DNA from: Gambelia wislizenii
Taxonomy: Eukaryota > Chordata > Lepidosauria > Squamata > Crotaphytidae
DNA: 64,000 bases
Assembly: GCA_030847615.1 (NCBI GenBank)
Contig: JAUMIR010000003.1
Span: 26,286,501 to 26,350,500 of the forward strand
Direction: 5' to 3'
Below are positions 2,516 through 59,845 of this stretch, in pieces; within the stretch, counting starts at the first letter, position 1; every line of letters begins with the position of its first letter. The translations under genes and the position numbers were made by a program. The notes below the pieces were generated by a model that was not told where the DNA came from, did not search any database, and saw only the letters and a list, made by a program, of their open reading frames with translations.

Positions 2516-2649
2516 GTTATTACCAATTGTAACAAGAAATTGTAAAGCCTGTTGCATTATTTTGAAGTGGGTGGAAAGTAAGCAAGAGGGAATAACTCAT
2601 CTATACAATAACTTAAATGAATATTGCTCTACTCCTCCTTCAGTCTTAG

Positions 2650-2968
2650 GAGATTTTCAGACAGGGAAGTTATTCCCCGGGGAGATTGGGACAGAATTGT
2701 TTTGGTCCCGGAAGCAGCACCGCGTTTCACATGCCCACTTCCCTCTCCCGATCTCCCGTCATCCTGACGCTGTCCTTGTTCTAGTTTTTTTTATTAACAA
2801 CAAACTCTCGTTAATAAAATATACAGGGAACTAGAACAAGGACAGCTTCAGGGCGATAGGAGATCAGGAGAGGGAAGTGGGCGTGTGAAACGCGGTGCTG
2901 CTTCCGGGACCAAAACAATTCTGTCCCGATCTTCCCGGGGAATAATTTCCCCGTCATCTGAAAAACTC
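2650..2968. mobile_element. Foldback element (hairpin) with CTTAG target duplication
   Basis: Two arms of about 137 bp (2650-2785 and 2829-2968) are inverted copies at roughly 90 percent identity, around a 43-base loop. The loop itself can pair TTTATTAAC with GTTAATAAA. Ends are GAGATTTTCAGA and TCTGAAAAACTC. A perfect 5-bp direct repeat, CTTAG, flanks the element (2645-2649 and 2969-2973). The arms are more GC- and CpG-rich than the flanks. There is no coding capacity; the 90-codon frame across it is incidental. It belongs to the same end-type family as 10927, 16440, 33195, 37020, 41534 and others. Confidence 0.85.
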
Positions 2969-2973
2969 CTTAG

Positions 2974-3765
2974 TGGTTCTTTCCTTTGCCAGATAATAAG
3001 AAGTACAGTGATATTTGTTAAATCTTAATGGTGCATTTTTGCCTATGGAGAATGTTTTGACAGAATCACATATATTACAGTAAAAATCTTGGAACAATTG
3101 CATCGTTTACAAAGCAAGATAAAATAAAAATAAAGCGGCAGCAAAATTGTGGTTTAACCAGCTGATGCAAAACTGTCTGGTGAAGCAAACAGAAAAACCT
3201 GTTTTATTCCACAGTCCTTTTGTTTCTTAGATATAAGACCTATTGTATTACTGCCAAGTATTACTCCTCTTGCTTACTCCCAGCTAAGGATGCCTGAGAC
3301 TGCACTGTTAATCAATCTTTTAAAAGGCAAGGGGACCTGACCTTAAGAAAAGTGATCCTACTAGAAATATCCCATTCCTCAGAAGATTTTGAGGGGAGAA
3401 GCATTCTGAAGATCTTAGCATTTGGAACTATGTATATTAGGACAGGCATCTATTTATCTGATCTCTGATAATAGGTAGACCTCTGCTCTGTAAAGAGAGA
3501 ATAGTAAATGTCCTGCCATGAAAATGGGCTTCTTCCATCCTGGTTTTTATGAAAATGTTACTGGCTTTTATTGAGTTCTATGGGATAAAGTGTCCCGTTT
3601 CCATACAACAATGAAAACTAGTAGCGACATTGCTTTTATTTTAAGAGACTGTTCATTTGAATGGTCTAGATTCCACATTTTGTCATAGGCCTTGTGTAAA
3701 AGTAGATTTCTAAATCAGTATACAATACAACCAACCAACTAACCAAACCTCAAAAATCAAATCAC
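2974..3765. other. Unique DNA, nothing recognised
   Basis: No repeat family or coding frame recognised. Confidence 0.5.
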
Positions 3766-3801
3766 AACACACACACACACACACACACATACACACACAC
3801 A
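3766..3801. repeat. (CA)n microsatellite
   Basis: An interrupted CA dinucleotide run with one CATA interruption. Confidence 0.95.
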
Positions 3802-4394
3802 GAGTAATCTCTGACATTTTGATCACCAAGGTTTAGGGGGGAACATCCCATCCTCATTTATCTTCATCTCAAATTGTAGCCCTCTCATCTTCTCTCAGAA
3901 AATTAAAGAGTTCCACGGGCATCTAAGGGAGGAGAGATTTGCAAATGGCTACAGAGCTGAAGTAGAGGCAACAGTTAACTCTTTATCTTAGACTCTCTTG
4001 ATCCCACTGGTAGTGTGTGGGATGAAGGCAACTTTTGGCTGACTTTAAAGACTTTACTGACTTTGGGTAATGGCCTCACCTTTGAACATGGCAAACGTCC
4101 ATGGCCTCTAATCTGAGACAGTAATTCTTTCTCAAAGAATATTAGCTCTCATTCTCTTGTTATGTTTTATACTGAGATATGTGCAAGATAGCAAATCATT
4201 TCAATAGAGAAGTACCTGCACTTCCTGTGAGCTCTGAATTCCGTGTTAGATGTCTGTCCTTTGTCAGACTGTGGCCCAGTGTTTACGCTCTAAAGTAGGA
4301 AAATCAAAATAATCCCTTCTTGAATAAAAAACTGAGTTCCAACTTTGGGAAAAAGCAAGATATTGATGATAATGATGATGATGATGGAGGAGGA
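3802..4394. other. Unique DNA, nothing recognised
   Basis: No repeat family or coding frame recognised; a short ATG/GAT-rich tract lies at about 4366-4390. Confidence 0.5.
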
Positions 4395-4620
4395 GTTGTT
4401 GTTGTTTACTGTTATTGTTAACACCATCTCATGACAACCCTATCATAGAGTGCTTGGCAAAAAAAAAAAAAAAAATTCTGAGGAGGTTTGCCATTATGTT
4501 CCCCTTAGACAGAACATGTTCTCAAGGTTATCCAGTGGGTTTCCATGGCAGAACCATTTGTTCCCTAGTCACCTTGATTCCCTAGCCCTTCATTAAATTT
4601 GCTACACCACACTAGCTCTT
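4395..4620 (-). mobile_element. tRNA-derived SINE, degraded copy
   Basis: The segment runs from a GTTGTTGTT tail through GAGGAGGTTTGCCATT and CCAGTGGGTTTCCATGG to CTACACCACACTAGCT. This is the order, in reverse orientation, of a common squamate tRNA SINE: A box at the right end, tail with BovB-like end at the left. An A run (4461-4476) sits inside. Copies or fragments also occur at 10192, 30957-33805 and 46955-47775. Confidence 0.7.
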
Positions 4621-5080: not shown

Positions 5081-5278
5081 GTCTGGTAGCACAGTATTGC
5101 AAACCACAAAGTTATGAGTTTGACCCCAAGGGCTCCAAGTTTGACTCAGCCTTCCATCCTTACATAGGTCAGTAAAATGAGTACTCAGCTTGTTGGGGGC
5201 AATTAGCTAAAAATAATTGTAAACTGCTTGAGGAGTACTTTGGCACTGATAAACGATATAAAAATATCAGTTGCTATT
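5081..5278 (+). mobile_element. Sauria-type tRNA SINE
   Basis: It has a tRNA-like head (GGTAGCACAGTATTGCAAA, then GAGTTTGACCCC as B box), followed by CAGCCTTCCATCCTTAC, AGGTCAGTAAAATGAGTAC and the TTGGGGGCAATTAGC body. The 3' part ends in AACGATATAAAAATATCAG. This matches the Sauria SINE architecture of squamates, whose 3' end is thought to be recognised by BovB. Better copies lie at 33362 and 44322. Confidence 0.8.
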
Positions 5279-6805: not shown

Positions 6806-9800
6806 AAAGGGGCATATTTGCCTATGTGTTGGGAATTATAAATAATTTGATGCAACAGGTTTACGTTACCATTTCTGTGGTGAAAAGAGAAGCTTAGCAT
6901 GATCCAGATTTTCCTTGGTTTCCTCCCATTCTTGAGCAGTGCAGAGGTATTCACATTTCTTTGTCAAAAAGTTTTATAATGTCTTAAGAGATTAACAGTG
7001 AGCATGAATGAGGGCTTGCGGATTAGACCAAAAAAAAAAAGGGGGGGGGAGGAGAGGCTTCCATCCAGTACCTTGCTTTCAGATTTTAAGTTTTTCAGCA
7101 TTGCCAAATGAGTATAGAATCTAAGAGAAGATAATAAGGACCAGAGTCCCAAAAGTGTTTAGTGATTCAAAAAATTCAGATGACATGTCAGAACCGACAG
7201 AATGATGGAACATTATGTGGCAGGGCTTGCTCTTTATTTTTTATTTTTCTTTCTCTCCTCCCGCCCCCTTTTTTTTTTTGGTCTTATGCTAAGCTTTCAC
7301 CCTGAGTGAATGCAGATGTTATCACAGGATCCCAGACCGACAGTCAGTGAAATGTGACAAGCTGTCAGCAAAGTTACACTACGTTGAGTTTGTTAAAATA
7401 TCCCAAAGCTTTATATACATGCTTTTTATGAAGAAAAAAAAAAGGTGCTTGGCTCAGGCTCTTGGAGGTGGGAGGGGTGAGAAGGGAAGGAAAACACCCT
7501 TTCTGAGTAATTTCTGTTTTGTCATCCATTGTATGATTTTGAACACTTAACCCTGCATTTTCCCCCATCCTCTGAGGGGTTATGCAGCTATCAATAATGT
7601 CTCTAGAATGAAAAATCTAATTTGGGGATTCATGATATGACTGTTAACCAAATGCCATGTCAGCCGTCTTGTCAGTAACTGAAGTCTTTACTAGAATCGT
7701 AAGATCAACGGTTCCAAGACAAGGGACATGTTGGAGCCATTGTGTCTGAAGGGAGGGGTGCTGATTATTTTCTGTAGGACTTTGATATTCTAGAATCAGA
7801 TAATCACCCCTTAAAATTAGGGGAGTCCTCGGCAGTCAGCTACACAGAGGCAGATAGGGGATTCCTTTGCCACAGTAATGTGAATGGGAGCAATCAGAAC
7901 AAAATAAAAGCTTAGCAAATTCAACTTCTTGGTGAACAATGTTTGTCCACCTTTATGAAGGTGTGATATTCTATAAATGATACTTTATTTTTGTGCATCC
8001 TAATTGCCCTTTCTGTATTGGGCAGGAATTTCTCTTGCTCTCGTTCCCTGTGTTAGCGCATAGTTTATTTAAAGTAGTGTACAAATATAAAGCTACAACC
8101 ATGGCTACTGCTAATATTCTATTAATTTTCATGATCCCTTTTCTTTTGTAAATCACTGTAACCAAAACATGGTAGCTTTTAGATGTTTACATGTATTTTT
8201 ATGTAAAGATAGTTGTTTATACAGTCAGCCAATTAGGTATTATGCAAAAGTAAGGAGAGAAAAAAAAAACCCAAAATGGGGGGGGGGGAGACTGAGAAAA
8301 AAAATAATGCTAAAAAGTAAAACAGCCATCAAAATAATTATAGTCCACTACACATAAACAATTATGGATGTATGAAATTAGAGGGGGGAGAACAGAAGAC
8401 TGTGACAAAACCAGGTTTTCAAAGTGTAGATTGCTGTTATATGAATATGAAAGCTGAAAAAGTTATTTTCCATGTTAGCTTCAGTTAGGAAACAGAATTA
8501 TGGCAATACTGATAACGGTATCCTATTTATATCACAATCTTACTCACATCTGCTCAAAACTATGCTCATTGGGTTCAATAAGGTTTAGTTCCAGGTCAGT
8601 GTGTATATGATTGCAACCTTAATGGATTGGTTTTTAAGGCTATATAGGGGGGGAAAAGATGAATAGCTCCTGGTTTGAAACTCATGAACCAAATTGCACA
8701 CCTGTTTTGAAAATAATTATACAGATCAGTCACAGGAACCCCTGGCAGTCTGTATTTCCTTTCCTATTATTGTTAACGTAAACTGAAATTTAATGAGATA
8801 GCTGTTTGTAATGACACAGACTCATACATTTTCCTGATACACTGAGTTGCAGTAAGTTTATTTGCTGTTAAATAATGTCAAATAATGCTTGTGATTTAGA
8901 ATCAGTTTAAGTCTTCTTGGGAATGAGAAGAGTTTGTATTATTACTACCCATATATTAAACTGTGTTAATTCACTTCTCTGAACCAAGAAGCAAACATTC
9001 ATTTAAGTCCAATTTAGGTTTGCTGCCAAACCTATTACTGAACAATGTGCTGTGATTTGTTTTTTTTAAAAAAAATGAAATGTAAGGAGTTTGAGTAGAT
9101 AAAAATATTGTATTAATATTGATTTTATTTCCAAAGGCTGGAGCGAAAACAATCACTGAAATTATGCATATGGACAAACTGATTTAGAATATATTTAGCT
9201 GCTAATAGCACCCATGCTGAAGTTTTGAATTTCGTATGTCTGCTCAGATCTATTGTGATCCATTAAGTGGCTTCCTCCCGTACCCCTCCCCCTGCCCCCG
9301 GCAGCAAACTGAATACTGCAACTGCAAGGAGATCTTTTGTCCTTTTAATTCAGTCAGCATGGAAATGATTTTCTCATTTCAGGCCCTTTTCTGTCCTCTC
9401 TTCATTGTGTCAATAAAATAGAGTTGTGCCAAGCTGCTCTAATCAGCTTAGAGTGCTAATTCATTGCACTGGGATGCTATCGTAGTCTGGCTACAGGTGG
9501 ACGCTATAAGGGGTGAGACTCCAGTGGAGTGTAATTGTATGTCTCTTGAGCCTTGTTTGCAGAATAACTGAAATCTCAAGCTTGAGCTAAAGGAGAACAG
9601 AGGGTGGGATACAAATGCAAGAAAGTATATATGCAGCTTATTAGCACAGCGTCCTCTAACACTGCTAGAATAACTAGCTGGCATCCTTTTTATGAATTTT
9701 GATGGCATAAGTCCAACTCACACCATCACGATTCACTTTTACAGTTCTGGCCCAGCTTGGCAGTCTCTTCCGACCATCCAACAACCAAAGGTCCCCTCAA

Positions 9801-10242: not shown

Positions 10243-10689
10243 GACTGTTTAAGCCGTCAATAGATTCCCTCTGCCACTTTTGTGCCAGCATTGTCAGCAT
10301 GCGAAACCTCAGGCCATTTAACTCTCGTACTTACCCCGACAATGGCCATTCTGGAGTGAACACTTCCAAGTGAGATCGGGACATCCAGGTAAGTTTCACT
10401 CTTTTTTATGACCCTCCCTGGGTTACTTGGGTCTTTTAAAGTGTGTGTGTGTGTGTGTGTGTTTCAACTTTAAATGCTTTATTTTTGTTTTTAATTTTGA
10501 ATTTCCCGTGCGACAAAGTCTTGTGGAATTTTGAGCGAGGAAGTGAATGGGGCTCTGCTCACTTCCTCTCTATTGCCAGAGCTGCCAGGAAAGGAGGTAA
10601 GTGTGGGGGGAGTATTCTTTTGCCAGCATAAAAATGGGGGGAGGGTATGCTGGCAAAAGAATGTTTTAAGGACAGCATCTGATAAAGTC
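10243..10689 (+). mobile_element. Foldback-family element (long type)
   Basis: The right end, TCTGATAAAGTC, is the family end, followed by CTAAG, which fits the 5-bp target pattern. The left end is eroded (GACTGTTTAAGCC), so the left boundary is approximate. The interior contains an AAGCCGTCAATAGAT block, GAGATCGGGACATCCAGGTAAGT, and a second GGAGGTAAGTGTGG near 10594. It aligns with 37020-37540 in the same orientation and with 21425-21905 in reverse. Near the right end, ATTCTTTTGCCAGCATA and TATGCTGGCAAAAGAAT form a local hairpin (about 10614-10662). A GT microsatellite has expanded inside (10440-10462). Confidence 0.75.
10440..10462. repeat. (GT)n microsatellite
   Basis: A pure GT run within the foldback-family element. 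Confidence 0.95.
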
Positions 10690-10926
10690 CTAAGTCTCAA
10701 AGGTTATATATTTATATTTCTTTATACTGTAAAAGATTAACACAGCTGTATCTTGGAATGCTTTTGTTTATGACAGAAGTAGCATTCACATATTTTCACA
10801 TGTTTATATGGAGTTTTCTATAAAAGTTCTTCCTGCTTCTTCTTTAGCTTCCTTTGAGGCTTTGATTTTTCTTTGAAACAGTGTGGAAGGGCTTTAAAAG
10901 ACAATACCAGTTCTCCTGGGACTTAG

Positions 10927-11253
10927 GAGATTTTCAGAAACAATTTTCAGCAGGATATATAGCAAAACAGCTCCATTGCTGCTGTGCGGCAGGGGAGCTG
11001 TTTCGGACGACGCCGTCCCTCTGCCGAAACCCTCCCTGTCACTTCCGTGACAGAATGGAGGAAACCGCGTCGTATTTCATTTACGATTGTTGCCCGTGAG
11101 TGAAATACGATGTGGTTTCCTCCATTCTGTCATGGAAGTGACACAGAGGGTTTTGGCAGAGGGACGTCGTCGTCCGAAACAGTTCCCCTGCCGTGCGGCA
11201 GCAACGGAGCTGTTTTGCTATATATCCTGCCGAAAATCGCGTCTGAAAATCTC
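10927..11253. mobile_element. Near-symmetric foldback element with CTTAG duplication
   Basis: Arms 10927-11079 and 11101-11253 are 153 bp each, inverted and about 90 percent identical, around a 21-base loop. Many differences between arms are transitions at CpG sites. Ends are GAGATTTTCAGA and TCTGAAAATCTC. A perfect CTTAG repeat flanks it (10922-10926 and 11254-11258). It is GC-rich against an AT-rich background and has no coding capacity. Confidence 0.9.
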
Positions 11254-11389
11254 CTTAGATAAGCTGAATTCACTTAAATCTCATCTGCCCATTATAGAAC
11301 ATAAAATTATCAGCCCATTGATTAGAGAACTTATATTGCGGGAGGGGGAGCTGCTTTTTGTCCTCTCAGTTGGGGCAATATACAGTTTG

Positions 11390-16434: not shown

Positions 16435-16439
16435 CCCTG

Positions 16440-17217
16440 GAAATTCTAAAAAAAAAAATCAGACATGGGAAAAATCATGGGATTACAATGTCAGGGTAGT
16501 GTGAATGGGCCCTGCTATCACATGATGTTGTCATCTTCACATTCTAATCCATGCTACAACCATGAAAAAGGCATTATTTGCAACTGATGGGACAAGCCAT
16601 CAATAGATCATTAATAGTGCTTTTTTGTAGTATTGACTGCATGCAGGACCAGTTTAAGGAATTTTGGGGTCCCCTGCAATACTTTATTTTGGGGGGCCCG
16701 TATGTTTATCTCAGGTTGATGTAACCTAACTCAACCTAAGCTATTCACAGTACAGGATATTCAGATTATTACTAATAAAGTTTTTGCAGGAGGAGGGTTA
16801 CAACGGGGCCCCCACAATGTTGGGCCCCTCCGCAGATGCTGACACCACTGGTGCCTTAAACTGGCCCTGACTGCATGTGAAACCACATCCCATTGTAATT
16901 GTGAGATTACTGTTTGAATGGGTGGTCCTTTCAATGCTTGTGTGTTCATTTACTTTGTTAATCATGGTGTTTTTGGAGTTTTAAGTGAGCTTGCGTCTTC
17001 TCCTAAGAACTGCTGAAATCTTGCCCATGCGAAACCAGAGAAGTAAACTCCCATTCTTAAAGTGCTTAAAGTGCTAGTGGTCATTGTGAGATAATTCTGT
17101 GGCGTTTCTTTCATGTGATTACAGCTATGTGCAATAATAAGCATTACAATGCCACAATGTTCCTCCCATCTTCATTTGCGGAATTACAGTGTTTTTAGAC
17201 ACTAGTCTGATAATGTC
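16440..17217. mobile_element. Foldback-family element split by a hAT MITE
   Basis: The right end, GTCTGATAATGTC (17205-17217), is the family end. The left end appears as GA...ATCAGACATGG, with an A run expanded inside the terminus. A perfect 5-bp repeat, CCCTG, flanks it (16435-16439 and 17218-17222). The interior has ACTGATGGGACAAGCCATCA, matching the central palindrome of 37020-37540. A complete hAT MITE sits at 16644-16869. The left terminus is the weakest part of the call. Confidence 0.65.
16644..16869. mobile_element. hAT MITE with perfect 8-bp target duplication
   Basis: The left end is CAGGACCAGTTTAAGG; the right end, reverse complemented, is CAGGGCCAGTTTAAGG, a hAT-type terminus. ACTGCATG is repeated perfectly at both sides (16636-16643 and 16870-16877), the 8-bp duplication typical of hAT transposases. 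It is 226 bp long, has no coding capacity and must have been mobilised in trans. GGGGCCC-rich blocks lie near both ends. Confidence 0.92.
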
Positions 17218-17222
17218 CCCTG

Positions 17223-21424: not shown

Positions 21425-21905
21425 TAAGGATCTACGCCTCTTCCACACCAGTGTAAAAATTTTTGCCAGCATAAAAAAAAACCTATGCGGCAAAAGAACG
21501 CACATACCTTCCTATCCCAGCAAAGACTCAATAAAGAGGAAGTGAACGGAGCCCAGTTCATTTTCTCTCTCGAAATCCCGCGAGACTTTGTCACTTGGGA
21601 AATTTAAAATAAAAACAAAATAAACACATTTAAAGCTGCACAGAGCTTTAAAGGTCCCAAGTAACTTGGGGGGGGGGTAATAAAAAGAGTGAAACTTACC
21701 TGGATGTTCCAATCTGACCTGGATGTGTTCACCCCAGATCGGCCATTCTCTCTGCAATTATGAGATTTAAATGGCCCAAGGTTTTGAACACCATCAATGC
21801 TGGCACAAAAGCAGCATGGGGGATCTATGGATGGTTTCAGCCATCAATAAAAAGGTATGTTAGCATAACGCCAGCAGAACGTGAAAGGATGTCATAGTCT
21901 GATAT
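21425..21905 (-). mobile_element. Foldback-family element (long type), eroded ends
   Basis: The interior is the reverse complement of 10243-10689: GAAACTTACCTGGATGTTCC, CCCAAGTAACTTGGG, the block near AGGAAGTGAACGGAGCCC, and a TTTTTGCCAGCATAAAA motif near the left end. The right end, GTCTGATATTGGAATCC, is a decayed family terminus. The left boundary follows CTAAG at the CR1 junction, which fits the family's target pattern, but no matching right-hand repeat remains. Confidence 0.65.
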
Positions 21906-22750
21906 TGGAATCCTTTTGGGTTCCGCTGGTGTCGTGATCACGCCACATTTGATGCATCTGATAAGCTCCTATGTTATGATTTGTACACATTGTGTTCACC
22001 CCTATCTGAGTAGAGGCCACTGTTGGGACCACTAGGCATGATAACTGCCTACGTTTACCGCTGTAGGTCCTCAGTGGAGGTTCATGCACATTATATGATG
22101 AGCTATGGCTCTGACAGACAGACAGACAATCAGTTAGAATCTTGTATGGCAAAGCATAGCATGGTAGTTTCATATACATTGCAATGGCAAAGCATAGCAC
22201 GGTAGTTTCACATACATTGCATGTGGAATTATGCTACAGCTGTTCAATGTCCCCAGACTTACTATTGATCCACTGCAGCCCTTCTAAGGCCATTCCATGG
22301 CTGATGGAGAGTGGGGAGGGGGAAATCAGAGAAGCACCTGGCTATGTCTGCGTAGCCAAATGCAAAATGATTACATCATCAGCTGAGGTCTGCAGGGGTC
22401 CTCCAGATGTCTCAGTGGACATAGCCAGATGTTTCTCTGTTCCTCCGTCCTGCTGTCCACCAGCCACAGAATGCCAATGCTGCAGAATGATCTGCCATAG
22501 CACAAATGTAAGTTCAGGGGAAGGCCGTTGGTCATTGCAGAGGAAGGATACCAATTTATTCAGTAACCAAAAAAGACACATCTGCATATGCCACTATGCC
22601 AGCTATCAGCTGTTACTTTTATAGAAAAGGAGGAAAACATTAAGAAAGTGCAAACTGACACAAATTAAGCAAGCATTTTAACCCCTTTCAACAGGAGAAT
22701 GAGAGATATTTAAATTACTACGAGTTGGAGGTGTTTATCTTTGGCTGGAC
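21906..22750. other. Unique DNA with a short tandem duplication
   Basis: Apart from the 38-bp duplication at 22146-22221 I recognise nothing. Overlapping open frames on both strands (up to 146 codons at 22184-22624) show no domain. Confidence 0.45.
22146..22221. repeat. 38-bp tandem duplication
   Basis: Two adjacent 38-bp units (22146-22183, 22184-22221) begin ATGGCAAAGCATAGCA and end ATACATTGCA. They differ at only two positions, so the duplication is recent. Confidence 0.92.
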
Positions 22751-30335: not shown

Positions 30336-30545
30336 GCCTTATCACACTACACAGATGTAGTGCTATTATTCCACTTTAACTGCTATGGCTGCCTACTGTA
30401 CAATCCTTGAAGTTTATGGAAGGGCTTTAGCATTCTCAGCCAGAAAATTCTTAGTCCTCACTAAACTACAATCCCCAGAATTCCACAGGAGGCTGCCACA
30501 GCAGTTAAAGTGAATAATAGTGCTATAACTGTGTGGTGCGATAAG
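30336..30545. mobile_element. hAT-type MITE (copy 1)
   Basis: The ends, CCTTATCACACTACACAG and the complement of CTGTGTGGTGCGATAAG, are inverted. Inner blocks mirror each other: GTAGTGCTATTATTCCACTT with AGTGAATAATAGTGCTATAA, and CTTTAACTGC with GCAGTTAAAG. The same arrangement recurs at 40471 and 61512. It abuts the foldback-family element starting at 30546. The family is a common squamate hAT-like MITE; no transposase. Confidence 0.75.
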
Positions 30546-30851
30546 AAGATTATCAGACATCGCTAATGTGGTGCTGTAATGATGCCAATGAAATGCAAAA
30601 GGATGCCAATATCAGACAACAATGTCCCTTTGCATTCAGCTGGCGTTGTTATGATGTTCTAATTAATTGATGGGCCGAGCTGTCAATAGATCGCTGTTGG
30701 GTGTATGAGTATAAAATTAAAAATTTATTAAAGATTCTAGGGAGCTAGAACAGAAAATAAGTCTGATGGGGAGGGTTTATTGTGCTGAGACAGGGATGGG
30801 ATTGGAGATTGTGGGACAGGAATGCTTTTTCTGTTACTGTCTGATAATCTC
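30546..30851 (+). mobile_element. Foldback-family element (short long-type derivative)
   Basis: Ends are AAGATTATCAGACAT and CTGTCTGATAATCTC. The interior shares a TTGATGGGCCGAGCTGTCAA block and GATTGTGGGACAGGAATGC with 37020-37540, and ATATCAGACAACAATGTCCC with the block at 37085. It looks like an internal deletion derivative, 306 bp long. Flanks ATAAG and CTAGG do not match, so the target duplication is not shown. Confidence 0.75.
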
Positions 30852-30878
30852 CTAGGGCTCAAAGAATCAGCCCTTTGG

Positions 30879-33028: not shown

Positions 33029-33194
33029 CCCATTTCCAACTTATGCTGACCTTAAGGTTTTCTTGGGAAGATGTGTTCAGGAAGGGGTTGCCTTTGCTTT
33101 CCTCTGAGGCTGAGAGTGTGTGACCTGCCCAAGGTCATCCTAGTGGGTTTCCACGGCTGAGCAGGAATTCAAACCTTGGCCCCCAGAGTCCTTG
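33029..33194 (-). mobile_element. tRNA-SINE body, part 2 of 3
   Basis: CATTTCCAACTTATGCTGACC, AAGGTCATCCTAGTGGGTTT and GGCCCCCAGAGTCCTTG are the body of the SINE up to the B-box side. The break at 33194 is the left edge of a foldback-family element; the SINE resumes at 33764. Confidence 0.85.
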
Positions 33195-33763
33195 GAGATT
33201 ATCAGATGTGGGGAAACACAGCAAAAAACTACGTCCCCAGCCATGTCAGAAGATCATGATTAGAACAGAAAGGCGACATTATTAGACACCCACACCCTCA
33301 GCTGTTCCTGGGACATAGCACTGCTGTTGATGACTCTTCAGTTTTTCATTGACAAGGACAAGTCATGGTGGTGCAGTGGTTAAATGCCCGTACTGCAGCC
33401 ACAACATTCTGAGTTTGACCCCAAGGGCTCCAAGGTTGACTCAGCCTTCCATCCTTTCATAGGTCAGTAAAATGAGTACCCGCCTTGTGGGGACAATTAG
33501 CTAACACACACTGGAAACCACTTGGAGAGTGCCTAGCGCACTATAAAGTGGTGTATATGTGTATGTAAGCTGCTCTGAGAGCCATTGTGGCTGAAGAGTG
33601 GTGTATAAATACTGTAATAAATAAAATATAATAAAAAGGGATGCCTTACTCATGCCTGCGCTACGCCTCTGGGACGCTGAAGGACAACGTTGTCTGATAA
33701 TATCCCCCATTTCTGTTCTTGTCATGATCTTATGACATGGTTTTTACCATGTCTGATAATCTG
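33195..33763 (+). mobile_element. Foldback-family element (nested type) in the SINE
   Basis: Ends are GAGATTATCAGATG and CATGTCTGATAATCTG. The target duplication is CCTTG (33190-33194) and CTTTG (33764-33768), one mismatch. Inside, a second inverted pair starts ATTATTAGACACCC and ends TTGTCTGATAATAT, forming a hairpin within the element. A Sauria SINE at 33362-33636 interrupts the loop. It aligns with 46079-46308, which lacks the SINE. Confidence 0.82.
33362..33636 (+). mobile_element. Sauria-type tRNA SINE in foldback element
   Basis: The A-box region TGGTGGTGCAGTGGTTAAAT and a B-box-like GAGTTTGACCCC are followed by CAGCCTTCCATCCTTTCATA, AGGTCAGTAAAATGAGTACC, GGACAATTAGCTAACAC and an A-rich tail with AATAAATAAAAT. 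The flanking sequence on either side joins to give the loop of the element at 46079. Confidence 0.88.
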
Positions 33764-33805
33764 CTTTGTCAAATGCTCAAACCACTACTCCATGTTGGCT
33801 TGCAA
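33764..33805 (-). mobile_element. tRNA-SINE head, part 3 of 3
   Basis: GTCAAATGCTCAAACCACTA and CTCCATGTTGGCT are the A-box end of the SINE in reverse, completing the element split at 30982 and 33194. Confidence 0.82.
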
Positions 33806-36676: not shown

Positions 36677-37019
36677 TAGTACTGCCAAGCCAAATATCTT
36701 CCATCCTGTAACTGTGCATTTGGTTTTTGTGACCTAAATGTAGAATTTAGCATTTTTCTCTGTTGAATTTCATTTTATTAACTTCTGCCCAATTTTCTAG
36801 TTTATCAAGGTCCTTTTGCATTCTGTTTCGATCTCCCAGTGTGTTAGTTACCCGTCCCAGTTTTGTGTCATCTGCAAACTTGATGAGGATTCCCTCCACT
36901 CCATCATCTAAGTCATTGATAAAAATATTGAAGAGTAATTACTCTAGGAGAGAACACTGAGGCACTCCACTTGAGATCTCCTTCCAATTTGAAGTGCAGC
37001 CATTGATGACAACTCTTTG

Positions 37020-37540
37020 GAGATTATCAGACACATCAAAAGTGGCATTACAGCAATGCCAGAAGATCTCAAAAGGGCTCCCTTATCAGACAACATTGTT
37101 CCCCCATTGTTATGCACTTGTTCTGCTGCCGTTCCATGGGAGCTGTTTTTTATTGATGGGAGAAGCCATCAATAGAGCCCCCATTCCATTTCTGTGATGG
37201 ATTTTCCTGTGTGTGACAAAGTGCCCTATTTTGTTGGTGAGATCCCAGCATCAATGGGAGGACCCTGCCAGAACACTTCTGGGTGAGATTGGGACATCCA
37301 GATAAATGACACACTTTTTCTGACCCTCCCCAGGTTACTTGTACATTTTAAAGTGTGTTTTTGTACCTGCTGTCACTTTTTTCTGTTCTTTTTATTTGCG
37401 AGAATCTGCGGGATTTCACCCCTGGGCTGTCAAAATAATGGGAGAGGAGGTAAGTGTGGTGGGGAGGGTAATTGTGGTGGAACAGGGACAGGACAGGGGC
37501 AGGAGTGGAGATTTTGGGACAGGAACACTTTGATAATCTC
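37020..37540 (+). mobile_element. Foldback-family element (long type) with CTTTG duplication
   Basis: Ends are GAGATTATCAGACAC and TTGATAATCTC. A perfect CTTTG repeat (37015-37019, 37541-37545) flanks it, and CR1 sequence continues on both sides. The interior contains CTTATCAGACAACATTG, a central palindrome ATTGATGGGAGAAGCCATCAA, GAGATTGGGACATCCAGATAA, GCGGGATTTCA and GAGAGGAGGTAAGTGTGG. It is 521 bp. Open frames over it (about 37339-37580) are incidental. Best-preserved copy of the long type. Confidence 0.9.
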
Positions 37541-37735
37541 CTTTGAGCATGGTTTTCCACACAATTATGGATCCATCTGACAGTGTTCCCATCTATTCCA
37601 CATTTAATCAGTTTGCTGATCAAAATATTATGGGGGATCTTATCAGAAGCTTTGCTGAAATCCAGATAAATGACATCCACAGCTTTCCCACCAAAAATTC
37701 CCTGCCACCAACAGTTCTGGGAGGAGTGTCCAAGC

Positions 37736-40987: not shown

Positions 40988-42690
40988 TGTTGTTAACTGC
41001 CATCAAGTCAACTTCAACTTATGGCGGCCCTATGAATGGGAGATCTCCAAGTCACCCTATTCTCAGGTCTTGTAGATTCAGGGCCATGGGTTCCTTGATT
41101 GGGTCTTTCCATCTGTAATGTGTTCTTCCTCTTTTCCTACTGCCTTCTACCTTATCAAGCATTATTGTCTTTTTTTAGTCAGTGATATCTTCTCATGATA
41201 TGGCCAAACTATGACAGTTTCAGTTTAGTCATCTTGGCTTCTAGGGAGAGTTGAGGCCTGATTTGCTCTAGGACCCATTTATCTGTTTTAGCATTCCATG
41301 GTATCTGTAGAACTCTTCTCTAGCACCACATTTCAAAGAAGCTGATTTTCTTCCTATGACCTTTCTTCACTGTCCAGCTTTCACTGCCATACATAGATAT
41401 GGAAAATATGATACCATGGATAATCCTAACTTTAGTATTCAATGATACATCTTAACACTTCAGAATCATGTCTAGTTTCTTCATGACTGCCCTTCCAAGT
41501 CCTAATCTTCTGATTTCTTGACTGCAGTCTCTGGACTTTATCAGATGGGGCCAAAATGCCCTGTTACTGCCCTGCCACCCTCTCTCCCATTCTTGCTATG
41601 GAATGGAGGTAAATGTTCACACACTTACCTCCATGAATGGGCTCCCTTCCTCCTTTGCTGGCTGGCTGTAAATGCAGCCATTGTAAGGCTGCCTTTACGA
41701 CCGGGCAGCTGAAATCCCGCTCATACTTGCGAAAGAACGAGTGGCAGGGAAAATAAAAAATAACCCCCCCAGCTGTCAAAGAAATAAATAAAAGGCAAAA
41801 ATAAATTAAAAATAAAACAAGCAACCCTGGGAGGGGGGGGAAGGGTGTCACTTACCTTGATGTCCCAATTGTGGCAGGAAGTGATTTGCATGGAGCTCCT
41901 TCCCTGTGCCTGTTATCTTGGAACAGGGAAGGGGCTCCTTTTCCCATGTCCTTGATTCTGTGACAGGCACGGAAGAAAACGGAAAAGGTGTTCTATTCAC
42001 GATGTTTCATTGTGAATAGAATACCCCAGGAGCAGGATGGGGGCAGGATGGGAGCAGCATGGAGAGGCTCGACATCATCCAAAAGGGAGCCCCTTTCTCA
42101 CCACTGTTCCATTCCTGCCCCAGAATAATTGACCCATCTGATAATCTCCTATGTTATTAATGACTGAGTCAAGGTATGAAAAATCTTGAACTATTTCAAT
42201 GTCTTCATCATCTACTTTAAAGTTATGTAAATCATCTGCGGTCATTATTTTTGTTTTTTAATGTTCAACTGTAAACCCACCTTTGTGGTTTCTTCCTTGA
42301 CTTTTTTCAGTAATCATTCTAAGTCTTTACTATTTTCTGCTAGTAGTATGGTGACATCTGCATCTCTTAAACTGTTGATGTTCCTTCCTCCTTTCATGCC
42401 TCCTTCTTCCAACTCTAATCCCACTTTATGTATGATATGTTCAGCAATACAAATTAAATAGGGTGATAAAATGCAGCGTTGCCTGACCCCCTTTGCCAAT
42501 TGGAAACCATCCCATTTCTCCATATTCTGTCCTAACAGTAGCCTCTTGTCCTGAGTACAGGGCAATCAAATGGTGTTGCACATCCCTTTTTTAATATGAA
42601 ATCCATTGTTTTTCATGATCTATATAATTAAAGGCTTTTCTATAAGCTATAAGGCACAGGCTGATTTTCTTTTGAAATGCAAAAGAAACC
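40988..42690 (-). mobile_element. BovB/RTE LINE 3' part, split by a foldback element
   Basis: The 3' end is at the left (AACTGCCATCAAGTCAACTT and TATGGCGGCCCTATGAATGG). Further into the element, the minus-strand frame at 42314-42565 reads FQLAKGVRQRCILSPYLICI, then GRNINSLRDADVTILLAENS, the RTE-type reverse-transcriptase motifs. The catalytic YADD is changed to RDADV, so it is dead. Sequence to about 42690 continues upstream reverse-transcriptase positions. A foldback-family element (41534-42148) splits the copy. BovB in squamates is known to have spread horizontally. Confidence 0.85.
41534..42148 (-). mobile_element. Foldback-family element (long type) in BovB
   Basis: Ends are GACTTTATCAGATGG and CCATCTGATAATCTC. 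The target duplication is CTCTG (41529-41533) and CTATG (42149-42153), one mismatch, and BovB continues on both sides. On the minus strand it carries GACATCAAGGTAAGTGACAC, GAGCGGGATTTCAGC and GGAGGTAAGTGTGTGAAC, aligning with 37020 and 59087. A central palindrome TCTATTCACGATG with CATTGTGAATAGA lies near 41992. 615 bp, no transposase. Confidence 0.88.
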
Positions 42691-44060: not shown

Positions 44061-44129
44061 ACTGTGGGTATGTGGATACATGTGTGCAGGAGCTGGAGTG
44101 ATGCTTAACAGGAAGTAGCAAAGACACAG

Positions 44130-44276
44130 GAGATTATCACACGAGGCTGTTTTGCCACAACAATAGCATTATAAAAGAAAACAAATAACATACCACTTTG
44201 AAAACGCTGAGTAGCACACCTCTCTTCTTTTGCACAACTGCTCTGCTTTGCAAACTCTCCTAGTGTGATAAATCTC
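44130..44276. mobile_element. Small foldback-family element (ATTATCACAC type)
   Basis: The left end, GAGATTATCACACGAGG, mirrors the right end, CCTAGTGTGATAAATCTC. It is 147 bp, with no coding capacity. Flanks CACAG and TTTCT do not match, so insertion is not proven by a duplication. Confidence 0.6.
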
Positions 44277-44321
44277 TTTCTTCAATGCTGGCATTACAGT
44301 AGTCACATGGCAGGACAGAGC

Positions 44322-44600
44322 CCTGGTGGTGCAGTGGTTAAATGCCAGTACTGCAAGTCACCACGTTGCAAGTTCAATTCCAGCAGACTTCAAGGTTCAC
44401 TCAGCCTTCCATCCTTTCGTAGGTCAGTAAAATGAGTACCCAGATTGTGGGGGCAATTAGCTAAGACACACTGGAAGTTGCTTATTGCAGTGTAGATGTG
44501 TAAACTGCTATTGCTTAAAACAATTTGTAAGCCACTCTGATAGCCTTGTGGCTGAAAAGCAGGGTATAAATAACTAAATAAATAAAAATAAAAATAAAAT
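44322..44600 (+). mobile_element. Sauria-type tRNA SINE
   Basis: CCCTGGTGGTGCAGTGGTTA (A-box head), CAAGTTCAATTCCAGCAG (B box), CAGCCTTCCATCCTTTCGTA, GTAGGTCAGTAAAATGAGTA and GGGCAATTAGCTAAGAC are followed by an AATAAATAAAAATAAAA tail. Probably the best-preserved Sauria SINE of the window. Confidence 0.9.
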
Positions 44601-44640
44601 ATTGTCCTCCCTCTGCCTACTCCTTTCAATTCCAAAGCAG

Positions 44641-44806
44641 GCTAATTTCATGCCTGGTTTTTTTTTTTTAAAAAAATCTTTGTTGTGTTTGCATAAACAC
44701 AGCAAAAATTATTTTAAAATTATATTTATTTTATCATTTTGCTGTAATTATGTAAACACAGCAAAATATTTTTTTTAAAAAAAATTGACAGGCATGGAGT
44801 TAGCTT
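44641..44806. repeat. Inverted repeat with ~80-bp AT-rich arms
   Basis: The left arm starts GCTAATTTCATGCCTGG and the right arm ends CAGGCATGGAGTTAGC. Between them TTGTTGTGTTTGCATAAACA mirrors TAATTATGTAAACACAGCAA, and T/A runs pair. A foldback element is likely, but I could not define target duplications. Confidence 0.75.
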
Positions 44807-44882
44807 GCTCTGGAATAGTAAGGGAGAGGGGGGAGGAAAATGAGGCCCCATGATTGTTCTAATGCCAGTATTCAAGTGAAGG

Positions 44883-45080
44883 GACTTATCGCACACAAAC
44901 AAATCCTGGAACAGCATCACTATTGGGAATTTATTGACAGGTTTTCTTGTTAAGGAAAAGGAGCACCACACTAATGTGGTGATTACAGACCAGAAACAGG
45001 ACAGCGTAATTTTATACGGTTTGGCCATGGAGCTACTTATCCTGCTTTTATTCCACTTTTTTGCTTCATGTGATAATCTC
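44883..45080. mobile_element. Small foldback-family element (ATTATCACAC type), second copy
   Basis: Ends are GACTTATCGCACAC and CATGTGATAATCTC. 198 bp. An internal CCACACTAATGTGGTGATTA palindrome lies near 44967. Flanks GAAGG and CAAAG match at 3 of 5 positions only. Confidence 0.55.
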
Positions 45081-45524
45081 CAAAGATTTACACTTAATAC
45101 CCTAGATTCAGAAATACTTGATTTGGGGTTAGTATGAGGTTCAACATCATGCAGGTTATTCTGAACTGAGTAGCATTTTCATAAGGATGATTCAAGCATG
45201 AAGAAGAATCAGAATACCTTAAAGTCTAAGAGTTTTCCATCCTGTTGAAGAAATAGAAAAAATTCTGGAGGCATTGCTCATTTAGTAGAGAAAGAGAAAG
45301 TGGTGGGAGGATAGTCTGACTTTGCAGACAGTAACATTTGCTTCTCTCCCATTTTTTATGGTTCAAAAAGCAAGTGAAGCACCCCCTGTTCAAAAGAAGG
45401 AAAGACAACTGTATATGACATTAACAATAACATAATTCTATTGGAGGGCAATACATAAAACATATCTTTTATTTCTTTTTTCCAGATAAAACAAAAAGCT
45501 TTTTATATTATAGATTTGACATCA
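45081..45524. other. Unique DNA, nothing recognised
   Basis: No repeat family or exon recognised. Confidence 0.4.
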
Positions 45525-46078: not shown

Positions 46079-46308
46079 ACAAAATTATCAGACACCCTCA
46101 TCATTCAGCCATTCCAGGGGCGTAGCACTGGTACAAATGAGGTGTCACTTTTTTATTGACAGACAAAGCCATCTATAAAAAATGACACCTCATTCATGCC
46201 CACGCTATGCCCCCGGAATGCCTGAACAACCATGCTGTCTGATAATTTCGCTCTTTTGTGTTATCATTGTGTCCTTATGATGCCTTTTTTGCCACATCTG
46301 ATAAAGTC
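46079..46308 (+). mobile_element. Foldback-family element (nested type), short
   Basis: The right end is CATCTGATAAAGTC and the left end is decayed (GACAAAATTATCAGACACCC). Inside, the arm from TTATCAGACACCCTCA to about 46157 pairs with the arm ending GCTGTCTGATAAT at about 46246, forming a hairpin with GAGGTGTCA / TGACACCTC near the tip. It is the SINE-free version of 33195-33763. No target duplication found. Confidence 0.72.
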
Positions 46309-46954
46309 CTTCCTTTTATTTTTGTGCAGTAGGGAAACCACAAAAATTAGGATGGTGTTTGCCGGATCAGTCAGAAAAAAAAAAAAAGAATCATAAAATT
46401 CACTATAGATAACCCATCATTGTATGTGTTTAATATTTTATCCAGGAAGAGTAGCTCTATGTTTTCAAATTGTTAACTAGTGTTCAATTAGGCAAATAAT
46501 ATAATGGAACCCATTGCAGGTTTCTCCTTTCTTTGATGATAAAGAATTATGGCTCTTATTAATATTTCACACATTTTGTAGGTAATAGCACTGGTTCTAT
46601 GACTTCATACTTTTCCCCCCAAATGGTCTCTAGATTGTACTTAGGAAATGTTATTACAAGAATTTCTGTCATATTTTTTGAAAAGATGGTTTCCTCTGCA
46701 TGGCATGAAACAGTGGGTTATTTCACTGGAATTTTAACTTCCCCAAAGAAAAGTTCAAGGAGTCAGACATCACCGAGGTTTCTAAAGTAACAAAATGTAC
46801 TAAAGGCACTCATATGATATCAGAATAAATAAAGAAACAGTGTTCATTTCTGAATTGTGTTCCTCCACACCATTGGTGGACTTATTGTACTGTTCACTAA
46901 GTTGTGGTGCAAACACTAATGGAATTTGGCACCTCCAATTCTGTTGAGAACCAG
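46309..46954. other. Unique DNA, nothing recognised
   Basis: No repeat family or exon recognised; an A run at 46375-46387. Confidence 0.4.
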
Positions 46955-51461: not shown

Positions 51462-54400
51462 AATGATTATTTATCATTACCACCATATAATGGAACCAGG
51501 AATGATCTGGGTGCAGGAATTGAGGTCATGTCGGGGAAGGGAAGGTATGGCGGCAACAGAGTGAAGAAATATTACAAAAGAAGAAGGGATCGATGCTTAA
51601 TATCTATCCCTTCTTCAGTTCACTCTGTTTCCCAGAATAATTTGCAGAGCATACCATCCTTTCCACAGCCCCTTACTCTGCTCCTTTGCAATGCCAGGTC
51701 GGTTAAAAATAAGACTTATATTATACATGACCTCTTAGTGGATGAGGCTGCCGATCTGGCATGCTTTACCTAGACCTGGCTGGGAGATGCCACTGCTGCG
51801 ACATGGGTGTGGGCTCTCCCGGTTGGGTATACAGTCAGCGAGCAGATAAGGGAAAGTGGGTGGAGGGGGGCAATGTGGCCTTGGTTCATAGAAACAACTT
51901 AACCTTGACCAGGAAGCCTATCCGGAAAACAGCTTGCATCAAGTGCATGTACCTTTGCCTGAAAACCAGGGATAGTTTGGGGATTCTGTTGGTATACCAG
52001 CCACCCCGTCGCTTAACAGACTCCCTGACTGAGCTGACCCAGCTGATCTCTGAGTTGTTGTTGGAGTTGCCTAGACTTTTGGTTTTGGGCAACTTCAACA
52101 TTCCACTCGAGACCAGCGTGTCAAATCTAACTGGTGAGGCTCGGGAGTTCATGGAAAACATGACAAACATGGGCCTATCCCAATTGGTTGACGGGCCCAC
52201 ACATTGTGCAGGTCATACCCTCGATGCGATCTTCAGTATGGAACAGGAATATCCGTGGGCGGAGGTTACAAAAGCCTTCGCATTGTCATGGACTGATCAC
52301 TTCCTGGTCAAGATGGAACTAAGAGCCATTGTCTGCCCCTCCAGGGGTGGTGGACCCATTAGAATGGTCTGCCCTCAAAGGCTGATGGAACCAATTGGTT
52401 TCCAGAAAGCCCTAGAGGGTTTAATGGTTGGTAATGCCGGTGATTCTGTCGAGGCTTTGGTCAGCATCTGGAACACTGATCTTACCAAGGCTATCGACAC
52501 AATTGCTCCCAAGCGTCCTTTCGAGCCCGCCTCCAATCGTAAACCCTGGTACACAGAGGAGCTTAGGAGGATGAAGCGAACTGGACAACAGCTAGAGTGC
52601 AAGTGGCAGAAGACTCGACTCTTATCCGACAGAACTCGCCATAGGAAGCATCTTGATTCCTATCGGGAGGCAATATATGCAGCACAGAGATCCTTCTGTT
52701 CTGCACATATTGCTTCTGCAGAGTCCCATCCAGCAGAGTTGTTTAAGGTGGTGGGGGAGCTGACACAGGCTTCTCCTGTGCCAGACCCCCTAGTTAACCC
52801 GACAACAGCCTGCTGTGATGCATTTAACATCCACTTTGCAGATAAAATCTCTCAGATAAGAGCTGACTTGGATGCCAATGTTCTGACAGAATCCATAGAT
52901 GAGGCATCCAACAACTCCGTTGATGGCATTACTGGATCAGTTTCAATCAGTGAGTACCGATGATGTGGACAAGCTCCTTGGAAGAGTGAGGAAGACAACT
53001 TGCTCTCTTGATCCCTGTCCATCTTGGCTGGTTGTCTGGGGGGGGACGCATTGAGAGTATTCCTACGGGCCACAATCAATGTGTCCTTCAGGGAAGGTAT
53101 CGTACCATCTTGTTTAAACAAGGCGGCGGTTAAGCCACTCCTGAAAAAACCTCCCCTGGACCCCCTGGACAGGAACAATTACAGACCAGTGTCCTTGCTA
53201 CCTTTTTTAAGCAAGGTGATGGAGATGGCAGTTGCTTCCCAACTCCAAGCCATCTTGGATGAAACCAATTATCTTGATCCATTTCAAACCGGCTTCAGGA
53301 CAGGATATGAAGTTGAGACTGCCATGGTTGCTATAACCGACGACCTCCACATGAGCATCGACAGGGGTAGTGTGACCCTGCTGGTGCTCTTGGACCTCTC
53401 AGCGGCCTTTGACACTGTAGATAATTCTATCCTCTTGGATCACCTGAGAGAGTTAGGAATTGGAGGCACTGCTCTGCTGTGGTTCCGTTCCTTTCTCTTA
53501 GGCATATCCCAGAGGGTGAGTTGATCTTCCAGAATTGAGCTTAATTGTGGTGTCCCTCAGGGTGCCATCCTGTCCCTGATGCTATTTAACGTTTATATGA
53601 AGCCGCATGACCAGATCGTCGGCTCAGACTTCAGATGGCATCTCTCCTCTCAATGACTGTCTTAGAGTGGTAATGGTTTGGATGAGGAAAAGCAGATTGA
53701 GACTAAATCCAGACAAAACGGAGGTACTGACAGTCATAGGCCCGAAAACAGGTCTGGGAATACAACTTCCAGGCCTGGATGGCGTCACACTCTCCTCTAA
53801 GGACTGTGTTCACAGTCTGGGGGTACTCCTAGATTCGTCACTTCACATGACTAGTCAGGTGAGTGCGACGGTCAGGAGTGCCTGTTATCAGCTTCAGCTG
53901 ATACGCCAGCTGTGCCCTTACCTGGATGCAAGGGATCTGGAAACTGGTACATGCTTTGGTAACCTCACGTCTGGATTACTGTAACACACTCTACATGGGG
54001 CTACCCCGGAAACTTCAACTGGTACAAAATATGGCAGCCAGGTTAATTACGGGTACATCTAGGAGAGAGCATATAACACCTGTGCTTAAATCTCTCCACT
54101 GGCTGCCGATCAGTTTCCAGGCACAGTACAAGGTGTTGGTTTTAACCTTTAAAGCCCTACATGGCTTGCGTCCATCTTATCTCCGGGACTGCCTCATCCC
54201 ATATGATCCCCCCGCACACTTCGGTTCTCTGGGAGGAACCTGTTGCAGCCTATGAAAACTAGGCTGTCGCAGATCTCCCAAAGGGCCTTCTCTTCTATGG
54301 CTCCCAGACTTTGGAATGGCCTGCCAGACGAGATCCATCTTATCACTACTCTTGATAGCTTCAAGAAAGTGCTAAAGATGGATCTCTTCTGGCAGGCCTT

Positions 54401-54654: not shown

Positions 54655-54690
54655 TATTATTATTATTATTATTATTATTAAAGTACAGTG
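54655..54690. repeat. (TTA)n tail of L2
   Basis: The trinucleotide run that ends L2-type elements. Confidence 0.95.
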
Positions 54691-56527: not shown

Positions 56528-56540
56528 ATTGATAAAGTCA

Positions 56541-57482: not shown

Positions 57483-58274
57483 AGTGAAATGAAAAAGAAT
57501 GAAAAACAGAATGGAATGATCTTGTAAATAGAAAGTGCCTCATAGATCCAGCTCGAAGGTTGCTGACTTTTGCTTTATTTTTTGGTCTTCATGAAAACAG
57601 CTTTACTTTTCAAAGACTGTGGGTTAGCTGCCTGAGAACAAGAATTAACAGTCAATAAAGCTAGTAATTAGCATAAATGCTTGGTTCAATACAATAGGTC
57701 TCTTTCAGCTAATTACCTTCTCCATAAGTAATTACAGCAGGTGAAGTGCATGCAACACTGAACAGATTACCTCAGCTGGGTTTATGTATCAGTCAAACAA
57801 AACTATCATTTTTAAAAAAAGAGTAACACGATTCACATGTTACTCAAATATTAGGCAATTCTCACATACATACATGCATACATACATACATTTGAATTGC
57901 CTGGTATTTGAGTAACGTGAATCATGTTACCCAAGGGTATATGTCATCTTCTCAGGACATTCCTTCTTTTTGGAAAAGGTATTAAGATTTCATTTAAAAT
58001 GCTCTATGTGCTGATATATGAGCATATTCTGACTGTATTTCTTAGGGTAGACTTAAATAAATACATAAGGTGATGAAGGAGGTGGCAGTGCTAACATGTA
58101 GTGATGCATTTTGCTGGGGGAGGAGGCTGGGCAACAGCACAAAAAATGATGGGACTGCAGTTTTCCTCCTCTTCCTCCTCTTGAAATATGGGTAAACCAA
58201 GAGATAGCCAGGCTAATCTCTGAAATACTGTCAGTGCCACCATATCTCTCATATGTCAAAGCATAATGTGGAGG
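57483..58274. other. Mostly unique DNA with one inverted repeat
   Basis: 57600-57780 has several CTAATTAC/GTAATTAC motifs, suggestive of homeodomain-type sites but not proof. The inverted repeat at 57823-57930 is listed separately. Confidence 0.4.
57823..57930. repeat. Inverted repeat around a (CATA)n core
   Basis: Arms 57823-57861 and 57894-57930 pair: GTAACACGATTCACATGTTA with the complement of GTAACGTGAATCATGTTAC, and CAAATATTAGGCAATTC with the complement of GAATTGCCTGGTATTTG. The loop is a CATACATA-type microsatellite. It may be a small foldback element. Confidence 0.88.
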
Positions 58275-58590
58275 AATGTGGAATCATAGAATCATATAGC
58301 TGGAAGGGGTCCCACAGGGCATCGAGTCTGGGCAGGAAATCCAGCTACAGCATCCCTAGCAGGTAGCTGTCTAGCCTCCTTTTGAAGATGCCCAGAGGAG
58401 ACCTTACTACCTAATTAATTGGTTCCATTGCCGAACCACTCTTACTGTCAAGAAGTTCCTTCTAATGTTATTTAAAACCATTATACCTGGTCCTACTCTC
58501 TAGGGCAGCAGAAAACAACCATACACCCTCTTCTCTGTGACAACTCTATAGATATTTAAAAAGTGCAGACTTGTCACCCCTCAGTCATGA
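58275..58590 (-). mobile_element. CR1 LINE 3' end
   Basis: GGAATCATAGAATCATATAG, CAGGAAATCCAGCTACAGCA, CTGTCAAGAAGTTCCTTCTA and CTTGTCACCCCTCAGTCATG are CR1 in reverse, same subfamily as 45525. Confidence 0.85.
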
Positions 58591-58792
58591 TATAACATAA
58601 ATACCATCATGAATTTAATTTCCTTCATGACCAGTTTTGGTTGGAAGTTATGGGAATTACAGTAAAAACAAACAGAGAGAGTACCAGGTTGCCCAAGTAA
58701 TGTTCTCTTCTATTGACAAATGTAAAAATAGTGTAGTCTGAGAAGTCTGATGATTATTGCTGTCTCTCGCTACTCTACCTGCAAGCAAGCTT

Positions 58793-59086
58793 AGAATCAT
58801 GGAGTTGGAAGTGATTGCAAGGGCCATCTAGTCTAGCTCCCTGCTACGGAGGAATCCTCTGCTAGAGCACCCCACAGAGGTGGCTATCTAGGTGTTTACC
58901 AAGGAAGGAGAAGCCACCACTTTTCAGGTAGGCTGTTCCATTGTTGAATAGCTCATACCATCAGGAATTTCTTCCTAATTTTTAGGATAAATTTCTTTCC
59001 TTGTTATTTAAATCCATTGCTTACAGAAAACAAACTTGCTCGATTGTCTAAATGGAAGCCCTTCAGATATTTAAATATAGTTATGT
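58793..59086 (-). mobile_element. CR1 LINE, left part of a split copy
   Basis: AGAATCATGGAGTTGGAAGT, CCATCTAGTCTAGCTCCCTG, a CAGGAATTTCTTCCTAATTT block and CCCTTCAGATATTTAAATAT run in CR1 order (reverse). It stops at 59086 and resumes at 59703. Confidence 0.82.
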
Positions 59087-59702
59087 GAGATTATCGGACG
59101 GGGACAAAAAAAGGACCCCCGTCTTGCTATGTTCTCTCCCGCACCCCTCCCATCCCCGTCCTGGCATGATAACCCTACATTTCAGACCCACCTAATTCCA
59201 CATCCGTCCCCTCTCCTCGGCAGCCCAGGAGTGAATGTAGCTCGAACAGAGCCCATTCACTTCCTGGTTTGAGTTCCTGGCCGTTCTCGCGAGAGAACAA
59301 GCATGAGGGAAATTAAAAAATAAAAAGCAAAGGAAACTTCAAAAAGTGATACCAAGCACAAAAACACAGTTAAAAAAAGCCAAGTAACCCAAGGAGGATA
59401 CAAAAAAGTGTGTCACTTACCTCCTTGTCTCAATCGCACCTGGAAGTGTTTGGCACAGACCTCCCACTATGGCTGGCATCGCACCAAGCATAATGGGACA
59501 CCTTTTTGCTCACCTGTCATTCTGTGACAGGAATGGAATGGGTGATCTATTCATGGCTTAAACCATGAATAAGAAGAAATGAGGGCAGCACAGAACCAGC
59601 ATGGGGGCATAATGGGACAAGGACGACAATGTCTGAAAGGGAAGCCCTTTGGTGATCTCCTAGCATTCGTGTAATGCCATATTAAGGGCATCTGATAATC
59701 TC
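59087..59702 (-). mobile_element. Foldback-family element (long type) in CR1
   Basis: Ends are GAGATTATCGGAC and CATCTGATAATCTC. On the minus strand it carries GAGACAAGGAGGTAAGTGAC and a GAATGGGCTCTGTTCGAGC block, aligning with 41534 and 10243. A central palindrome lies at about 59551-59571 (TATTCATGGCTTAAACCATG...). CR1 continues on both sides. The flanks TATGT and CATGG do not match well, so the duplication is unclear. 616 bp. Confidence 0.82.
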
Positions 59703-59845
59703 CATGGTGTCACTTCTCAGTCTTGACTTATCCAGGCTAAACATTACCAACTCCCCAGTTCTTCATCTGACTTGGCTACCAGACATTTTAGGACTGGACA
59801 AAGTATTTCATATGGGGTTGTCTGACCTAAGCAAATTATTATCAT
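59703..59845 (-). mobile_element. CR1 LINE, right part of a split copy
   Basis: GTGTCACTTCTCAGTCTTGA, TCCAGGCTAAACATTACCAA and GGACTGGACAAAGTATTTCA continue the CR1 order from 59086. Confidence 0.8.

Follow-up and report, generated by a model that had tools for sequence, protein, structure and literature searches.

Inverted-end insertions in a Gambelia wislizenii contig: probable non-autonomous DNA transposons for which a 3-bp target duplication is favoured

The window analysed here, a 64,000-nucleotide stretch of Gambelia wislizenii (assembly GCA_030847615.1, contig JAUMIR010000003.1, positions 26,286,501 to 26,350,500), carries related DNA-transposon insertions with inverted GAGATTATCAGA-type ends: ten copies with two ends, one of them tentative, and two copies with only one recognised end. 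The ten two-ended copies account for 5,562 of the 64,000 bases, other repeats inserted in them included. We consider that they are probably old, apparently non-coding and non-autonomous cut-and-paste DNA transposons, resembling miniature inverted-repeat transposable elements (MITEs) and including two foldbacks, which were mobilised by a transposase of the PIF/Harbinger (PHIS: PIF/Harbinger, ISL2EU and Spy) superfamily with duplication of 3 base pairs (bp) at a C-NNN-G target, the hyphens here enclosing the duplicated bases. The copies are listed below, with no strand assigned to any of them, by the coordinates of our feature list followed in brackets by those of the frame used in a first-pass annotation of the same DNA; in the text they are called by their start in the latter frame.

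2649..2969 (2650-2968): foldback copy; ends GGAGATTTTCAGA/GGAGTTTTTCAGA; C-TTA-G on both sides (CTTAG/CTTAG)
10926..11254 (10927-11253): foldback copy; GGAGATTTTCAGA at both ends; C-TTA-G on both sides (CTTAG/CTTAG)
16439..17218 (16440-17217): copy; left end weak (9/13), right end GGACATTATCAGA; C-CCT-G on both sides
21428..21969 (called 21425; right end 21968): copy; right end GGAGCTTATCAGA clear, left end tentative at about 21429; TAA/TAT, flanks CTAAG/CTATG; second box 60 bp inside the right end
30545..30852 (30546-30851): copy inside an inverted-repeat element (right arm); target A-TAA-G; TAA/TAG, 5-bp flanks ATAAG/CTAGG; box 60 bp inside the left end
33194..33764 (33195-33763): copy; CTT/TTT, flanks CCTTG/CTTTG; second box 60 bp inside the right end
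37019..37541 (37020-37540): copy in the reverse-transcriptase region of a long interspersed nuclear element (LINE); C-TTT-G on both sides (CTTTG/CTTTG); box 60 bp inside the left end
41533..42149 (41534-42148): copy; ends GGACTTTATCAGA/GGAGATTATCAGA; TCT/TAT, flanks CTCTG/CTATG
44129..45081 (44130-45080): copy; ends GGAGATTATCACA; ACA/AAA, flanks CACAG/CAAAG; a stretch in common with the 33195 copy
59086..59703 (59087-59702): copy; ATG/ATG with left outer base T, 5-bp flanks TATGT/CATGG differing at two positions; second box (8/11) 60 bp inside the right end
10247..10690: one-ended copy; right end GGACTTTATCAGA, flank TAA-G; no left end recognised
46080..46309: one-ended copy; outer right end GGACTTTATCAGA with flank TTC-C, no outer left end found; inner boxes 46080 and 46250

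Searching the window for ends with at most 3 mismatches to GAGATTATCAGA gave 50 left-type and 58 right-type ends, which were paired when inverted, 60-1500 bp apart and carrying no more than 5 end mismatches summed over both ends. Among the 40 candidate pairs, six (starts 2650, 10927, 33195, 37020, 41534 and 44130) are flanked by a 5-bp repeat with at most one mismatch, and every one of these flanks reads CNNNG. The number of such flank-repeat pairs averaged 0.11 and never exceeded 1 in 200 first-order Markov sequences, and with the duplication requirement dropped the 40 pairs of the window compare with a Markov mean of 6.74. The end motif was derived from the same window, which makes the count of ends circular in part but does not affect the flank match. 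When the flanks of the same pairs were moved outward by 1 to 11 bases, the matches numbered 3, 2, 0, 0, 0, 1, 3, 0, 3, 2 and 1, so the signal is highest at the boundary itself, yet a background exists. The copies at 16440, 30546, 59087 and, tentatively, 21425 bring the total to ten.

The first-pass annotation had described these inverted pairs with CNNNG flanks and their C...G target rule, and both hold for this group of insertions; its observation was largely right and its interpretation is partly supported. Its insertion list stands for the ten copies, but three positions that it gave as ends are not outer ends: the copy placed at 10243 has its right end at 10689 and no left end was found, 46079 is an inner box of a copy whose outer right end is 46308, and 44130 pairs with 45080 instead of 44883. 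The repeat it reported at 16440 (CCCTG/CCCTG) is present, next to a left end that matches poorly in the 3-bp frame. Several copies interrupt hosts that it labelled CR1, BovB and SINE (short interspersed element), names that are its own.

The first-pass annotation placed GAGATT...AATCTC between 5-bp CNNNG repeats. An alternative parsing of these letters puts GGAGATT...AATCTCC between NNN repeats, with C on the left and G on the right outside them; the ends then read GGAGATTATCAGA...TCTGATAATCTCC with a 3-bp duplication in C-NNN-G. In 19 of 20 ends the 13-bp end begins with G, which corresponds to a G/C just outside the first-pass ends; in the 3-bp frame 17 of 20 ends have GG termini and 18 of 20 flanks have C/G as outer target base. 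Judged on these letters, a 3-bp duplication within C-NNN-G with GG...CC termini accounts for the ten insertions no less well than 5 bp does; we favour it and do not regard it as proven. Where the target itself is C...G, the two readings are indistinguishable; they can be separated where the target had no C or no G.

Empty sites, paralogous or within the interrupted repeat itself, were found in the window for four insertions (37020, 33195, 59087 and 30546), and the target is present there in single copy at several of them. For 30546, the other arm of the interrupted repeat provides the empty sequence GTGTGATAAGGCTC, and the joined flanks read GTGCGATAAGGCTC. The left outer base is A in both the flank and the other arm, and a 5-bp duplication would predict A at the right end, where C is found. 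The host of 59087 is a repeat for which six other places in the window span the junction, and the flanks join without a gap to these copies; the target is T-ATC-A in five of the six and T-ATG-G at 59087. Here the left outer base is T, as in five of the six other places, and a 5-bp duplication would predict T, but again C closes the right end, and in the 3-bp frame the repeat is perfect. Given that C is present at both right ends despite targets without a left C, it is most likely the element's own, and the two insertions together favour 3 bp. The 5-bp duplication of the first-pass annotation is therefore not the best reading, and we set it aside as first choice on these two empty sites. The other two do not discriminate: for 37020 the paralog at 31764 reads CTTTG once, and the joined flanks of 33195 match two repeat copies reading CCTAG.

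Several observations weigh against this reading. Two insertions carry the case for 3 bp, and it could fall if the C at each had arisen by chance mutation. Moreover, 59087 needs a change of G to T in its first left base and has G as right outer base where the paralogs have A. A second paralog of 37020, at 19063, reads CTTGA instead of CTTTG, and the paralog matches of 33195 are short (E values of 0.0004 and 0.05, the latter weak). One mismatch is present in the 3-bp repeat in five of ten copies, and the outer base at 46308 is C, not G. The C-TNA-G target published for NuwaII elements is kept at both flanks of 2650 and 10927, two of the ten copies, and at a single flank of 21425 and 30546; it is broken on both sides, with perfect repeats, in 16440 (CCT), 37020 (TTT) and 59087 (ATG). 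No transposase match was obtained among the 20 of 106 open reading frames (at least 75 amino acids) of the window that were scanned with Pfam, and the class assignment is drawn from the end and target pattern.

We propose the following mechanism. A PIF/Harbinger (PHIS) transposase of the DDE type, which we infer to be encoded elsewhere and to act in trans, would recognise the 13 bp of the GGAGATTATCAGA end; a second box, ATTATCAGACA, lying 60 bp further in at one of the two ends, may assist it. The copy would be excised and then inserted at C-NNN-G, where a presumed staggered cut would duplicate the central 3 bp, the duplication length of that superfamily. The GG termini together with the C-3 bp-G target indicate PIF/Harbinger (PHIS) of the NuwaII type. 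It is possible, if doubtful, that the copies represent a reptilian PHIS branch whose target rule was relaxed to C-NNN-G and whose end was bipartite, with two boxes of TTATCAGA exactly 60 bp apart, a branch once strongly amplified to about 9% of the window and unrecognised among unclassified squamate repeats.

Other explanations account for part of these data. A true 5-bp duplication (CNNNG), with ends starting GAGATTATC and a transposase from a superfamily that makes 5-bp duplications, would explain why all six pairs are flanked left and right by CNNNG repeats that differ at no more than one position, and it draws on the count of perfect repeats from the first-pass ends, which is 3 at length 5, 2 at length 3 and 0 at lengths 4, 6, 7 and 8. 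However, that count used the first-pass ends and hence does not test the shifted 3-bp frame, and the C that closes the right ends of 30546 and 59087, where the targets had A and T, is difficult to reconcile with it; we think it unlikely, with some weight left to it. We give somewhat less credence to a 3-bp duplication made by a transposase outside PHIS, of another superfamily that duplicates 3 bp or of an undescribed one. The triplet is indeed looser than the published TNA of NuwaII, and to our knowledge no transposase has been assigned to these ends, but a GG terminus, a C-3 bp-G target and short terminal inverted repeats (TIRs) are the combination published for NuwaII (PMC4482050). That unrelated repeats resemble each other by chance seems highly improbable: even though the ends are short, 10243, 46079 and 44883 are not outer element ends and other offsets reach up to 3 repeats, six pairs stand against the 0.11 expected, the interiors of five copies match pairwise and empty sites are found. 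The 3-bp duplication by a PHIS-type transposase thus remains the reading that we prefer.

The foldback label given to the whole family, which calls for long inverted arms over most of an element's length, suits 2650 and 10927, with arms of 127 nt and 164 nt, respectively, and TTTTCAGA ends (among the 25 of 95 inverted pairs listed), but not the other eight of ten copies, and we rejected it as a family trait. The same listed pairs include a shorter inverted repeat at 46082-46248 with 72-nt arms. The left arms of the two foldbacks align with a score of 22 (200 shuffles gave at most 15), though BLAST gave no match between the two copies at 1e-5. The copies at 10243, 21425, 37020, 41534 and 59087 show partial matches among themselves at 61-73% identity, which implies that the copies are old. 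Aligned end lengths were 16 (30546), 11 (37020), 17 (41534), 19 (44130) and 16 (59087) bases; for 33195, 16440 and 21425 the best end alignment lay elsewhere. The same repeat lies inside the 33195 and 44130 copies (33355-33637 and 44312-44597), with a third similar stretch at 5092-5253.

In 6 of 22 ends, namely the left ends of 30546 and 37020 and the right ends 21968, 33763, 46308 and 59702, a further box that resembles ATTATCAGACA at 8-11 of its 11 positions starts exactly 60 bp inward of the first. Compared pairwise, these six ends agree best in the terminal 13 bases (mean identity 0.88) and in the box (0.82), less in the spacer (0.52) and least past the box (0.38); the box value falls to 0.71 when 42148, with its degraded box, is added. 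This box may be a second binding site, a candidacy tempered by four other ends with a box-like match (8-10 of 11) at 39, 80, 80 and 84, so that the box is not confined to +60. The other 12 of the 22 ends match the box at no more than 6 or 7 of 11 positions.

The Pfam scan returned RVT_1 matches above the cut-off at 31786-32427 and 53012-53521 and two more reverse-transcriptase matches below it; the other matches listed for the 20 frames were weak and below cut-off. The 37020 copy has flanks that match the RVT_1 region at 31786-32427. A search for autonomous copies (end pairs 1.5-9 kb apart with up to 4 mismatches in the ends and an identical 3-bp repeat) gave three candidates, which were set aside: one joins the two foldbacks and two have a left end with 3 mismatches. 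Rfam gave no match in the window at the gathering threshold. Literature searches with four short end strings yielded no transposon paper among the matches listed, judged by title and abstract start, and searches on NuwaII, reptile or squamate Harbingers and lizard MITEs named no matchable family among those listed, whose titles and abstract starts contain no end sequences.

The inverted-repeat element at 30334-30545 and 30856-30860 (GAGCCTTATCACACTACACAG-type end), into whose right arm the 30546 copy has inserted, has similar, diverged stretches at 61520-61709 and 40461-40639. We considered this element, with its CTTATCACAC ends, as a relative of the family and rejected it, as the matches at 61520 and 40461 read CATTCATACTACAC and TGTTCACATTACAC there; on these letters it is treated as a separate host repeat. 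Two further inverted pairs lie in the window, one at 62457-62551 and 63906-64000 (95 nt, 91% complementary, the second arm reaching the window edge) and a short one at 7022-7056 and 7253-7287 (35 nt, 94% complementary) with A and G runs.

If our reading is correct, a family that seemed new for its 5-bp duplications belongs to a known superfamily, and it illustrates how GG...CC ends combined with a rule of C and G as outer target bases can mimic a 5-bp duplication. Transib ends are of the CACWATG type. The earlier comparison with Transib would rest on a 5-bp duplication, seen if the first-pass boundaries are used; the ends of the window copies are indeed GGAGATTATCAGA-type and without CACWATG, as was noted then, and under the 3-bp reading the resemblance disappears and the comparison becomes unnecessary.

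The closest likeness is to NuwaII, for which section 8 of PMC4482050 describes TIRs that mostly begin with GG and are 13-46 bp long, a C-TNA-G target, empty sites from which 3 and 5 bp cannot be told apart, and hosts that include one turtle. The window copies share the GG start, the C-3 bp-G target and the 3-or-5-bp ambiguity, and their inverted ends may fall within that TIR length range. They differ in a triplet that is often not TNA (TTT, CCT, ATG, TCT/TAT, ACA/AAA), in that neither the DDE transposase nor the Myb/SANT protein expected of autonomous NuwaII copies was seen in the open reading frames scanned, and in the second box at +60 bp, of which that section makes no mention. As the TNA triplet fails in most copies, we leave them outside NuwaII, in which membership is not proven, and regard NuwaII-like transport by a PHIS-type transposase as most likely. 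The survey of PHIS elements relied on transposase homology and, by its own statement, may have missed MITEs.

Harbinger-Snek of sea kraits, a PIF/Harbinger element proper, likewise has short non-coding derivatives that keep its ends and duplications, a likeness by description and not by end sequence, according to PMC8437027. It arrived within the past 15-25 million years, whereas the window copies are strongly diverged. The same paper states that earlier reports of Harbingers concerned aquatic vertebrates and none that are solely terrestrial, and gives their content in two terrestrial snakes as 0.44 and 0.41 Mbp. If the host is a terrestrial squamate, old PHIS-type copies on the scale seen here would bear on that aquatic-only picture.

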